A DNA stretch of 64,000 nucleotides from Pseudomonadota bacterium (GTDB lineage Bacteria > Pseudomonadota > Gammaproteobacteria > Burkholderiales > Burkholderiaceae_C), in assembly GCA_020161145.1 (NCBI GenBank), contig JAIUPQ010000002.1, positions 372,001-436,000 on the forward strand, in the 5' to 3' direction. Shown here piece after piece: positions 51,337-54,073 of this stretch. Position 1 is the first letter of the stretch. Each line of letters opens with the position of its first letter. The notes beneath the pieces are model-generated. The model was not told the origin of the DNA. It did not search any database and was given only the letters and a program-made list of their open reading frames with translations. Position numbers and translations under genes: made by a program.

Positions 51337-51552
51337 CTACGGCGTCGGCGGCGTGTCGGCGCCGGACTCGTCCTCCCGGAGGGTGGCGTCCACGGCCTGC
51401 CGCACCCAGGCGTCGAGCCGGGCGTCGTTGGCCGTGAAGGCCCGGCAACGGCGGCAGATGACGCGGTGCCACCCTGCGGTCAGCCGCACCGGCAGGGCGG
51501 CAGCAGGCAGTTGCTCCGAGGTCAGCAGGAAGATGTACTCACGGCAACGCAT
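51337..51552 (-). CDS. Small zinc anti-sigma factor (ZAS motif)
   Basis: A 71-residue soluble protein with Cys3 and the exact H-x3-C-x2-C zinc motif His29-Cys33-Cys36 (GWHRVICRRCRAF), characteristic of zinc-containing anti-sigma factors and zf-HC2 proteins. No membrane helix, so it would hold the sigma factor in the cytoplasm. The ATG overlaps the sigma factor stop by one base (TGATG). A change in zinc or thiol state could release sigma (inference from the family). Confidence 0.75.
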   Translation of the reverse strand: MRCREYIFLLTSEQLPAAALPVRLTAGWHRVICRRCRAFTANDARLDAWVRQAVDATLREDESGADTPPTP

Positions 51553-52121
51553 CAAACGGCTCCTTCGGCACCAAATCCACGGGTGGCCAGGCACAGCTGC
51601 AGCTGCTTGCGGGCCCGGCTCAGGCATTGCCAGTAGTCGGCGCGCGACAGGCCCAGCGTGTCGCAGATGGCCTCGGCCTCCCACTCCAGCAGCACGCGCA
51701 GGCTGAACACGCGCGCCGGCTTGGGCGGCAGGCGCTCGGTGCAGGCCTCGACCAGGGCAAAGAACTGCGCGGTGTGCAGTTGCGCATCGGGCAGATGCCA
51801 GCGTGCCACGCTCTGGCCGGCGGCCCATTTGCCGCGCGCGTTGAACAAGGTCTGGTCCAGGGTGTCGTCCTCCTCGGGGGCCTGGGGCTCGCCGTGGCGG
51901 CCACGGTCGCGCAGTTGGTCGGTGATCTTGTGTTTGAGGATGCCGAACAGGTAGGGGCGGGGGTCGGCGGGCCATTGGGCCGGTGGCTGTGCCAGCAGCG
52001 CGGCCAGCGCCTCCTGCACGGCGTCTTCGGCGTCCTCGGCGCAATGCAGATGCAGGCGGGCGTAGCGCAGCATGGGCGCGCGCCAGCGCCGCGTGATGTC
52101 TTGCGCGCTGGCGCTGGTCAC
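51552..52121 (-). CDS. ECF RNA polymerase sigma factor
   Basis: A 189-residue ECF sigma factor, starting at the GTG that overlaps the DoxX stop (GTGA). Region 2 is at about residues 10-75 (APMLRYARLHLHCAEDAEDA, PRPYLFGILKHKITDQLR), region 4 at about 120-180 (LPPKPARVFSLRVLLEWEAE, ICDTLGLSRADYWQCLSRAR). Cotranscribed with the bufferin-like genes and followed by its zinc anti-sigma factor, so it is the obvious regulator of this operon, perhaps through the site upstream of the precursor gene. Confidence 0.88.
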   Translation of the reverse strand: MTSASAQDITRRWRAPMLRYARLHLHCAEDAEDAVQEALAALLAQPPAQWPADPRPYLFGILKHKITDQLRDRGRHGEPQAPEEDDTLDQTLFNARGKWAAGQSVARWHLPDAQLHTAQFFALVEACTERLPPKPARVFSLRVLLEWEAEAICDTLGLSRADYWQCLSRARKQLQLCLATRGFGAEGAV

Positions 52122-52600
52122 GGCGCCTGCCGCAGCCCGAGCCCGTGATCCAGCGACCAGCGGCCCGGGCCCTGGGTGAAGACGGCCAGCAGCATCAGCG
52201 CCAGCATCAGCGGCACCTTGAAGCCCAGGCCGGCCTCGGTCTCGATCTGGTTCCAGCCGGCCCAGCCCAGATCGAAGTGCACGCTGACCACGGCCACCCA
52301 GGTGACGAAGAGCAGCGCCAGCGCGGCCAGCCGGCTGTGCAGGCCCACCAGCAATGCCAGGCCGGCCAGGCACTCGACGACGCCCGCCGCCAGCCAGTTG
52401 ACCTGCGTGCCCAGCAGCGACACCGGCCAGGGCAGCATCAGCGTGGCAAACCACTCGGGCGGCGTGGGGCCCGCCGCCAGCTTGACCCAGCCGGCCTGGA
52501 TGAACTCCTGAGCCAGCCACAGGCGCAGGCCCAGCAGGCCCAGGTCGCGCAGGCCGTCAAGGCGCCGCGCGCTGCTGATCGAGAAAGACGATGAAGGCAT
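52118..52600 (-). CDS. DoxX-like membrane protein of the bufferin operon (BufD/GigD type)
   Basis: A 160-residue protein with four hydrophobic helices: GLLGLRLWLAQEFIQAGWVK, VNWLAAGVVECLAGLALLVG, LALLFVTWVAVVSVHFDLG and PLMLALMLLAVFTQGPG. This is the DoxX fold. DoxX genes regularly end DUF2282/DUF692/DUF2063 operons. The role in the cytoplasmic membrane is unknown but may be redox or export. It overlaps the DUF2063 gene by 44 bases and the sigma gene by 4. Confidence 0.83.
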   Translation of the reverse strand: MPSSSFSISSARRLDGLRDLGLLGLRLWLAQEFIQAGWVKLAAGPTPPEWFATLMLPWPVSLLGTQVNWLAAGVVECLAGLALLVGLHSRLAALALLFVTWVAVVSVHFDLGWAGWNQIETEAGLGFKVPLMLALMLLAVFTQGPGRWSLDHGLGLRQAP

Positions 52601-52838
52601 CGGTCAGGTCTCCGTAGAAATGCGAATCCCAAGCCGATTCGCGCACGAAGGCGGCGATCAGCTCGTGCCAGCCCGGCTCGCCCAGGCGCTTGCGCACCTC
52701 GGGGAACTGGGCGTCGATCATCTGGGCCGCACCCAGATGCACCAGATAGCGGTAGGCGCGCAGCCCGTCCTCGCGGTAGCCCTCGGGCACCACCTCGCTG
52801 CGGCCTCTTACGTAGTCAAAGAAAGCGGCCTCAGGCAT
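52557..52838 (-). CDS. DUF2063-type partner of the MNIO enzyme (BufC), short
   Basis: A 93-residue protein (MPEAAFFDYVRGRSEVVPEG, AYRYLVHLGAAQMIDAQFPE, GWHELIAAFVRESAWDSHFY). The later part matches the HxxxxxFVxxxxxxSxxF pattern of DUF2063 proteins (BufC), which bind the precursor leader and the MNIO enzyme. Many BufC proteins are much longer, so this is a compact single-domain version, as in some beta-proteobacteria. Its start lies 31 bases inside the end of the MNIO gene, so both are coupled. Confidence 0.72.
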   Translation of the reverse strand: MPEAAFFDYVRGRSEVVPEGYREDGLRAYRYLVHLGAAQMIDAQFPEVRKRLGEPGWHELIAAFVRESAWDSHFYGDLTDAFIVFLDQQRAAP

Positions 52839-53605
52839 TGCAACTCCTCGTTGAGCACCTCGGCCGAGGGCACGTCGTTGTCCCATTCGAGCAGGATGGG
52901 GTGGCCGTGGGTGGCCTGCCACTGGCGTGCCAGCGCCGTGGTGGCGGGCTCCACGCGGGCGCTGTGGGTGTCGATGTAGAGGCCGAACCGCGCATCGAAC
53001 TCGTGCCCGGCCACATGCAGGTAGCGCACGCGGGTGGCATCGATGCGGGCCGTGAACGCCTCGGCCGTCAGGCCGCCGTGGTTCTTGAAGTTGACGGCGG
53101 CGTTGTTCACGTCCAGCAGCAGGTCGCAGTCGGCCAGCTCCAGCACGCGCTGGATGAAGTCCGGCTCCGGCAGGTCGCCCACGTTGGCATACCAGGTGGT
53201 GTTCTCCACCGCCATGCGCTGGCCCAGGGCGTCCTGCACGGCGGCGATGCGCCCGGCCACCCGCTGCGCCTCGGCCTCGGTGCAGGCGATGGGGAACAGG
53301 TCGTAGAGCTGGTGCGCGTCGCCGCTGGCGGCCAGGTGGTCGGAGTAGTGCACGGGCAGGCCCGTGGCACCCAACTCGGCCATCAGCTCGCGCAAGCCTT
53401 GCATGAAGGCCGGCTGCAGCGCGCCGTGGCCGCCCAGGTTCAGCGACACGCCGTGCAGCCAGACGGGCCGGCCGGCGGCCACGATCTGGTGCAGCGGTGT
53501 GCGGTCGCGCCGCAGCCAGTTCTCTGGTGCGACCTCGAAGAAGTCTGCCGTGAGGCTGGCCAGATCCCAGTCGGCCATCTCGCGGCGCAGGCCCAATCCA
53601 ATCAT
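52808..53605 (-). CDS. MNIO (DUF692) peptide-modifying enzyme, BufB type
   Basis: A 265-residue DUF692 TIM-barrel enzyme. Multinuclear non-heme iron oxidative enzymes modify cysteines in ribosomally made peptides (for example into thiooxazole or oxazolone-thioamide). Conserved segments are GLGLRREMADWDLA, DFFEVAPENWL, WLHGVSLNLGG, PVHYSDHLAASGD, VENTTWYAN, LLDVNNAAVNFKNHG, YLHVAGHE, DTHSARVEP and LLEWDNDVPS, carrying the His/Asp/Glu/Asn metal ligands. I start at ATG 53605; the apparent 372-residue frame to 53926 only reads the precursor gene in another frame. Ten bases after the precursor gene. Confidence 0.92.
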   Translation of the reverse strand: MIGLGLRREMADWDLASLTADFFEVAPENWLRRDRTPLHQIVAAGRPVWLHGVSLNLGGHGALQPAFMQGLRELMAELGATGLPVHYSDHLAASGDAHQLYDLFPIACTEAEAQRVAGRIAAVQDALGQRMAVENTTWYANVGDLPEPDFIQRVLELADCDLLLDVNNAAVNFKNHGGLTAEAFTARIDATRVRYLHVAGHEFDARFGLYIDTHSARVEPATTALARQWQATHGHPILLEWDNDVPSAEVLNEELQCLRPLSLTT

Positions 53606-53615
53606 GATGCGGTGC

Positions 53616-53831
53616 TTACTTCTTGCTGCATGAGGCGTCTTTTTTGCTGCACTTGGCTTCGAACGCGGCGCTGGCGGGGCTGGCCGCCTTCTTGCTGCAC
53701 GAGGCGTCTTTCTTGCTGCACTGGGCGTCTTTTTTGCCGCACTTGGCTTCCGATGCGGCGCTGGCCGGGTTGGCGGCCCGCTTGGCGCAGGATGCATCCT
53801 TCTTGCTGCACTTGGCGTCTTTCTTGCTGCA
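53616..53831. repeat. 90-bp tandem repeat with 21-bp sub-repeats in the precursor gene
   Basis: The coding repeats of 30 residues are visible in the DNA as near-copies (for example GCGTCTTTTTTGCTGCACTT and GCGTCTTTCTTGCTGCACTG), each with 21-bp units encoding the CxKKDAx heptads. The last block has two of the usual three heptads. Such DNA can expand or contract by slippage, changing the number of cysteines. Confidence 0.75.
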
Positions 53832-53981
53832 TTTGGCGTCTGACGCCCCGTCGGCCGGTGCCGAGGCGGCTTTTTTGCCGCAGGTGCCGGCGCCGCAGCT
53901 GTGCTGAGGGGCTTCCCCGGCGGCATAGGCCGAGGCGGCGATGGCGGTGGCGGCCAGGGTGGCCAGTTGTTTGAGGTTCAT
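53616..53981 (-). CDS. Cys/Lys heptad-repeat bufferin-like precursor peptide
   Basis: A 121-residue precursor. Residues 1-20 are a Sec signal (MNLKQLATLAATAIAASAYA). The mature part has ten cysteines: 29 and 34 (HSCGAGTCG), then 51, 58, 65; 81, 88, 95; 111, 118, spaced exactly 7 apart within blocks that recur every 30 residues. Each heptad reads CxK(K/R)-D-A-x or close to it. The mature region has no other recognisable fold. Bufferins are DUF2282/GigA-like copper-binding peptides whose EGKCG-type cysteines are modified by MNIO. Here the canonical core is replaced by a longer KKDA-Cys array. Likely exported to buffer copper or a similar metal (inference). Confidence 0.8.
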   Translation of the reverse strand: MNLKQLATLAATAIAASAYAAGEAPQHSCGAGTCGKKAASAPADGASDAKCSKKDAKCSKKDASCAKRAANPASAASEAKCGKKDAQCSKKDASCSKKAASPASAAFEAKCSKKDASCSKK

Positions 53982-54044: not shown

Positions 54045-54073
54045 TTGTCGCACAAGCGGGGTGGAACCTGACA
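54045..54073 (-). promoter_or_regulatory. Candidate ECF-type promoter before the precursor gene
   Basis: Minus strand: TGTCAGG (54067-54073), 16 bases, CGACAA (54045-54050). Spacing and the CGAC core recall ECF-sigma promoters, and the site is 64 bases before the precursor ATG. Only a weak match, so tentative. Confidence 0.3.

Follow-up and report, generated by a model that had tools for sequence, protein, structure and literature searches.

A Burkholderiales MNIO operon with a bare DUF2063 partner and a C-[SGA]-K-K repeat precursor

The partner proteins of MNIO (DUF692) enzymes are credited with two jobs, the holding of the precursor through a RiPP recognition element (RRE; RiPP, ribosomally synthesized and post-translationally modified peptide) and the enabling of the active mixed-valent iron cluster. 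Partners of PME-type 1 occupy a narrow size range corresponding to the full DUF2063-RRE length, and signal-bearing precursors are linked to that type (PMC12452194). A 2026 preprint describes the members of the partner family as fusions of DUF2063 with an RRE, either full or partial, and reports that the mixed-valent diiron state requires HvfC (PMC13419390). Relatives of the EGKCG group, the captophorins, carry 5-thiooxazole and bind copper, and Phe250 of FonB has been linked to selectivity around the cysteine (PMC13097082). The operon described here lies in a stretch of 64,000 nucleotides (the window) of a Burkholderiales genome (assembly GCA_020161145.1, contig JAIUPQ010000002.1, positions 372,001 to 436,000) and, by its sequence, its clade is an exception to that description of the partner family. 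The operon probably yields an exported, cysteine-modified metallophore that would work like the captophorins and be made with a minimal, RRE-less partner.

The bare DUF2063 partner and the enzyme clade

Six genes lie on the minus strand from 53981 to 51337 and encode, in this order, the precursor, the MNIO, the DUF2063 protein, a DoxX/HvfX protein, an extracytoplasmic function (ECF) sigma factor and a 71-residue anti-sigma factor (Table 1); they overlap throughout from the MNIO to the anti-sigma gene, and 10 nt separate precursor and MNIO. An earlier sequence-only reading had proposed six tightly coupled genes of these kinds, forming a complete bufferin-like RiPP operon with its own ECF sigma and zinc anti-sigma (ZAS) factors. 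The positions of all six, the signal-bearing, cysteine-rich nature of the precursor and the identities of the MNIO, partner, DoxX and sigma proteins, each above its model cut-off, agree with that proposal, and the gene content supports its reading as a RiPP operon with an MNIO and with regulators of the ECF and ZAS kinds. The operon is complete in having the six genes; the earlier reading had overlooked that its partner consists of the DUF2063 domain alone, without RRE.

Relatives were sought by scanning one genome per species with short peptide patterns of the window MNIO, a procedure by which distant members may be missed, and 50 loci with a related MNIO were found, their best segments being 55–69% identical. 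The MNIO–DUF2063 pair is conserved in 50/50 of them, the precursor in 45/50, DoxX in 42/50 and the sigma and ZAS genes in 28/50, which argues for an association beyond chance.

The window partner carries the DUF2063 signature of PME-type 1, and extends 7 residues beyond the Pfam domain. Across the window and all 50 loci the partner ends 0–14 residues beyond the match to the window protein, the frame being broken in L047, and the RRE that follows DUF2063 in PME-type 1 is therefore missing from the clade. The HvfC model is matched only over positions 3–91 of 237, and in a profile comparison the short partner covers columns 19–106 of the 272 of full-length partners (98.6%). As a control, DUF2063 matches were collected from 110 genomes of the order, 71 in all, and the 70 outside the window measured for residues after the domain, which number 150–199 in 66 of them; the other four are a protein with 80 residues (L064), one at a contig end (L061), a match below the cut-off with 310 (L121) and one with 5 (L117), which is the L022 locus of the clade. 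The L064 partner (G299:C297:47064-47333), outside the clade, possibly holds a partial RRE. Open-frame length was rejected as a measure of partner length, since the 93-residue gene of the window sits in a 352-codon open frame. In Pelistega indica (L047) the DoxX frame is broken as well as that of DUF2063, and the MNIO is intact.

In a tree of 117 MNIO sequences, rooted by midpoint, the 52 rows with minimal partners (the window, the 50 loci and L117, which duplicates L022) form a single clade with 100/100 support on a stem of 1.55 changes per column. A branch with 100/99 support joins it to 11 further rows, all with EGKCG-like precursors and 10 with full partners, one being cut by a contig end; the assignment of rows to EGKCG or Buf2 was made by reading their precursors. 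The best model for the window MNIO is that of HvfB (NF003818), at 219.2 bits under a cut-off of 360, and the enzyme is nearest to the HvfB/EGKCG-type (captophorin) MNIOs while belonging to a clade of its own. The iron-site columns, whose metal-ligand roles were assigned by homology, and the catalytic Asp are identical in all rows of the clade, the EGKCG group and Buf2, one row with a gap excepted, and the window MNIO conserves the iron ligands and Asp242. The position of FonB Phe250 differs: the window MNIO has Asn243, the clade Asn in 50/52 rows and His in two, the EGKCG rows Phe (11/11) and the Buf2 rows Asp (10/11), so that the window MNIO lies outside Buf2 both by branch and by this residue.

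The precursor family and its recognition

One precursor family is present in 46 of the 51 loci (window and 45 relatives); the five loci where none was found are L034, L047 and three that begin close to the enzyme or at it (L020, L025, L050). The signal peptide follows the pattern MN[IL]K..A.LAA..IA.SA.A, and in 45/46 precursors the part after it opens with a CGAG[TS]C[GS]KK-like start and continues with C-[SGA]-K-K repeats, which hold 233 of the 299 cysteines (4–10 in each precursor). The EGKCG repeat of the captophorins occurs in 0/46. In the 36 of the 46 precursors that were scanned, neither a Pfam family, DUF2282 included, nor a bufferin or Hvf precursor model was matched, in accordance with the earlier remark that the core is unlike that of the standard bufferin, and the NCBIfam scan of the same 36 gave two weak CsgA matches (best E 0.0028). 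The bare DUF2063 partner, the C-[SGA]-K-K precursor and the enzyme Asn at the specificity site are new with respect to the literature searched, in which neither a C-x-K-K precursor family nor a PME1 clade lacking the RRE appears; the supplementary tables of PMC12452194 and PMC13097082 lie outside that search and may list such precursors.

The EGKCG precursors carry a segment, NPFxxxxLSSGY, directly after the signal peptide. Among the 30 best loci for an EGKCG-type query, 24 have a candidate precursor and six have none; the strict pattern is present in 19/24, and of the remaining five, L135, L145 and L153 are close variants by eye and L151 and L152 are wrong frames. A relaxed pattern is found in 10 of the 11 order-level EGKCG precursors (L096 is the exception). 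In all 30 loci a partner frame ends 742–814 nt past the MNIO stop, which indicates a long partner. Neither the strict nor the relaxed pattern occurs in any of the 46 clade precursors, so that segment and RRE are absent together, and the segment may be what docks on the RRE in the EGKCG group.

With no RRE, recognition in the clade would have to rely on the DUF2063/MNIO surface and on two parts of the precursor, its signal peptide and the CGAG[TS]C[GS]KK start. Removal of the signal leaves HvfA poorly modified, and the bufferin signal has been reported as a leader too (PMC13419390); in an alanine scan of fontiphorin no individual leader position was essential (PMC13097082). At 60–70% enzyme identity, the first 20 precursor residues are 52% identical in the clade (306 pairs), 33% in the EGKCG group (17 pairs), 41% in Buf1 (24 pairs) and 56% in Buf2 (22 pairs); this conservation fits a signal acting as leader, and was rejected as special evidence, the Buf2 rows being equally conserved. 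A more specific and tentative proposal is that the clade replaced RRE docking, with DUF2063 reading or shielding the signal and setting the diiron site, RRE and NPFxxxxLSSGY lost together, and the Asn-gated MNIO making a new C-x-K-K product.

Regulation and distribution

Table 1. Features of the operon and its promoter in window coordinates.
Feature	Position	Strand	Support
ECF-type promoter TGTCAGG-N16-CGAC	54047..54073	-	65 nt upstream of precursor start; from upstream-region comparison
Precursor peptide, 121 aa, Sec signal, 10 Cys, C-[SGA]-K-K repeats	53616..53981	-	same family in 45/50 relatives
MNIO (DUF692), 265 aa	52808..53605	-	PF05114 222.4 bits (cut-off 25)
Bare DUF2063 partner, 93 aa, without RRE	52557..52838	-	PF09836 41 bits (cut-off 27.2)
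DoxX/HvfX membrane protein, 160 aa	52118..52600	-	NF050144 84.1 bits (cut-off 80)
ECF sigma factor, 189 aa, GTG start	51552..52121	-	PF04542 40.7 and PF08281 33.1 bits, both above cut-off
Zinc-type anti-sigma factor, 71 aa, H-x3-C-x2-C (WHRVICRRC) and N-terminal Cys, no membrane part	51337..51552	-	

The model nearest to the sigma factor is TIGR02943, at 150.6 bits against a cut-off of 162.2. The anti-sigma motif H-x3-C-x2-C, claimed in the earlier reading, adjoins a cognate ECF gene in 29/29 rows, and the N-terminal cysteine was found by pattern in 27 and by eye in the remaining two. An ECF and ZAS pair on an MNIO operon is not new, being known from the meningococcal operon NMB2140-2145; the Neisseria anti-sigma factor MseR requires Cys4, Cys34 and Cys37 (PMC2893595). 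In Haemophilus influenzae a related sigma factor responds to hypochlorite and acts on a DoxX cluster (PMC7907618).

The promoter pattern TGTCAGG-N15-17-CGAC stands 45–125 nt upstream of the precursor in 22/22 tested loci with the sigma/ZAS pair, window included (four near-copies and three loci without precursor were omitted from the 29), and in 6/19 loci without it; 200 shuffles gave a mean of 0.005 and a maximum of 1, for a pattern derived from the same sequences on which it was counted, and an unfitted count of exact dyads gave 12/22 loci against 2–3 in 10 shuffles. No claim is made for a wider regulon, the host genome having 4 matches against 3 in a backward control; one of these promoter-like sites (L123, G000:C8:138616-138642), not above that control, lies 55 nt before a small open frame. 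Six loci (L024, L030, L034, L035, L037, L040) carry upstream, in place of the ECF/ZAS pair, an ECF gene in divergent orientation together with an NrsF-like gene (Pfam scan of L035 only), and a motif GTAACC-N14-18-CGTA is present in the five of them that have a precursor; these loci represent a swap of regulator and promoter inside one clade.

The named hosts belong to the Comamonadaceae, Sphaerotilaceae, Alcaligenaceae, Oxalobacteraceae, Neisseriaceae, Methylophilaceae, Zoogloeaceae, Azonexaceae, Moraxellaceae and Oceanospirillaceae. Among 274 evenly drawn genomes of the class, the window MNIO found a match at E<=1e-60 in its own genome only, and the EGKCG-type query in 116, so that the clade is taxonomically broad yet uncommon. 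Plasmid matches were confined to 6 records, every one below 60% identity. One strain of Macromonas nakdongensis has two loci of the clade (L002, L043). An additional gene separates the precursor from the MNIO in four Comamonas loci (L023, L027, L032, L038); the one in L032 (L032:3638-3937) encodes a DUF4148 protein (45 bits), which the other three resemble in sequence. In L013, L021, L026 and L036 an ABC substrate-binding protein and a hybrid histidine kinase lie downstream of the operon (Pfam check of L021 only).

Mechanism, alternatives and known systems

In the proposed mechanism, thiol or metal stress would free the ECF sigma factor from the cytoplasmic zinc anti-sigma factor, and the freed sigma would start the operon at TGTCAGG-N16-CGAC. 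The bare DUF2063 domain would render the MNIO active, the enzyme would oxidise, possibly to thiooxazole, the cysteines of the C-[SGA]-K-K repeats ahead of Sec export, and the exported peptide would act as a periplasmic buffer of copper or some similar metal, or serve a redox function, with DoxX/HvfX as a putative membrane accessory. Several observations weigh against this captophorin-like function. The anti-sigma factor reaches only 19.6 bits in its best model (cut-off 50), and its identity is therefore argued from motif and conservation; in the meningococcus, oxidants left sigma expression unaltered (PMC2893595). FonB left motifs with a charged residue directly after the cysteine unprocessed (PMC13097082); in the clade repeats a small residue follows the cysteine and Lys comes next, which makes the transfer of thiooxazole chemistry a guess. 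Given the long stem, the function of the clade may have drifted. Finally, no recurrent metal gene was recognised in the flanks, where nine families recur in at least 4 loci once 8 loci that duplicate the window or another locus are set aside; a Pfam check of three of the nine gave no known metal gene, and several other recurrent flank families resemble antisense frames.

The strongest alternative, still an unlikely one, keeps the same layout and supposes that the Asn-gated MNIO installs a group other than 5-thiooxazole on C-x-K-K, or that its product serves against a different metal or thiol stress; the product or the metal of the window operon may be new. The clade-specific Asn, the long stem and the Lys next to the residue that follows the cysteine are in its favour, whereas the metal ligands and the catalytic base are unchanged, and the characterised PME1-linked MNIO products all carry 5-thiooxazole (PMC13097082). 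It is improbable that another protein provides the RRE in trans: the host genome does contain PqqD matches, one of them clear (61 bits) and three weak, and sequence models could miss partners, but it has a single DUF2063 and a single MNIO match, and the docking-like segment is gone from 46/46 precursors. Still less credible is a peptide working unmodified as a metallothionein-like thiol buffer, with the MNIO serving something else; the mature part is rich in Cys and Lys and, in 45/46 precursors, with the window as the exception, free of aromatic residues beyond position 26, but the precursor stands beside the MNIO in 45/50 loci and the iron site is intact.

An ordinary Buf1 or Buf2 bufferin operon, the membership favoured by the sequence-only reading, has the same gene kinds, and ECF sigma genes occur in Buf1 clusters too (PMC12452194); it is rejected as very improbable, being contradicted by the EGKCG-side position of the MNIO, the RRE-less partner and the two profile checks which that reading had itself suggested, as the window precursor gave no Pfam match and so no DUF2282 (0/36 scanned members likewise), and the MNIO scored 185.6 bits with the BufB model NF050167 (cut-off 310). 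That the partner is a decayed remnant, as its shortness and the broken frame of L047 might suggest, is hardly believable, since its length is the same in the remaining 49 relatives, which span several families, and an alignment of 41 rows has 18 invariant columns and a mean column identity of 63%.

In a natural lineage that has the DUF2063 half alone, the two jobs ascribed to the partners come apart and each becomes testable. The clade also gives a minimal three-gene set (121, 265 and 93 aa) and one more class of substrate, marked by a single residue of the enzyme, together with a candidate docking segment in the EGKCG precursors.

In summary, the operon represents, by its sequence, a distinct clade that appears captophorin-like in its working and falls outside the captophorin definition with regard to the partner. 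With HvfABCX (oxazolin), fontiphorin and gonophorin it shares the MNIO, the DUF2063 partner, a Sec-exported precursor with repeated cysteines and the nearest branch of the MNIO tree, and its DoxX is of the HvfX type also present in hvf; the EGKCG captophorins differ in their EGKCG repeats, the Phe at FonB-250 and partners with RRE, where the window clade has C-[SGA]-K-K, Asn and no RRE. The Neisseria rpoE operon (NMB2140-2145, NGO1948-1943), which holds the gonophorin genes, has the same gene kinds, with the ECF sigma and cytoplasmic ZAS anti-sigma as the last two (PMC2893595), although its DoxX gene comes first and its partner NGO1945 is of full length with RRE (PDB 3dee, 249 residues). Buf1 (DUF2282) and Buf2 bufferins resemble the operon in bufABC gene order, DoxX, a signal-bearing precursor and, in some Buf1 clusters, an ECF sigma factor, there with NrsF, but have other precursor families, other MNIO branches and full-length partners. 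Many PME-type 2 partners are likewise short, probably a DUF2063-like domain alone (PMC12452194), but they lack the DUF2063 signature and pair with signal-less precursors, whereas the window has both signature and signal peptide. Control of the Caulobacter SigF/NrsF type is approached by the six relatives with divergent ECF and NrsF-like genes, while the window itself uses an ECF factor and a soluble ZAS protein.

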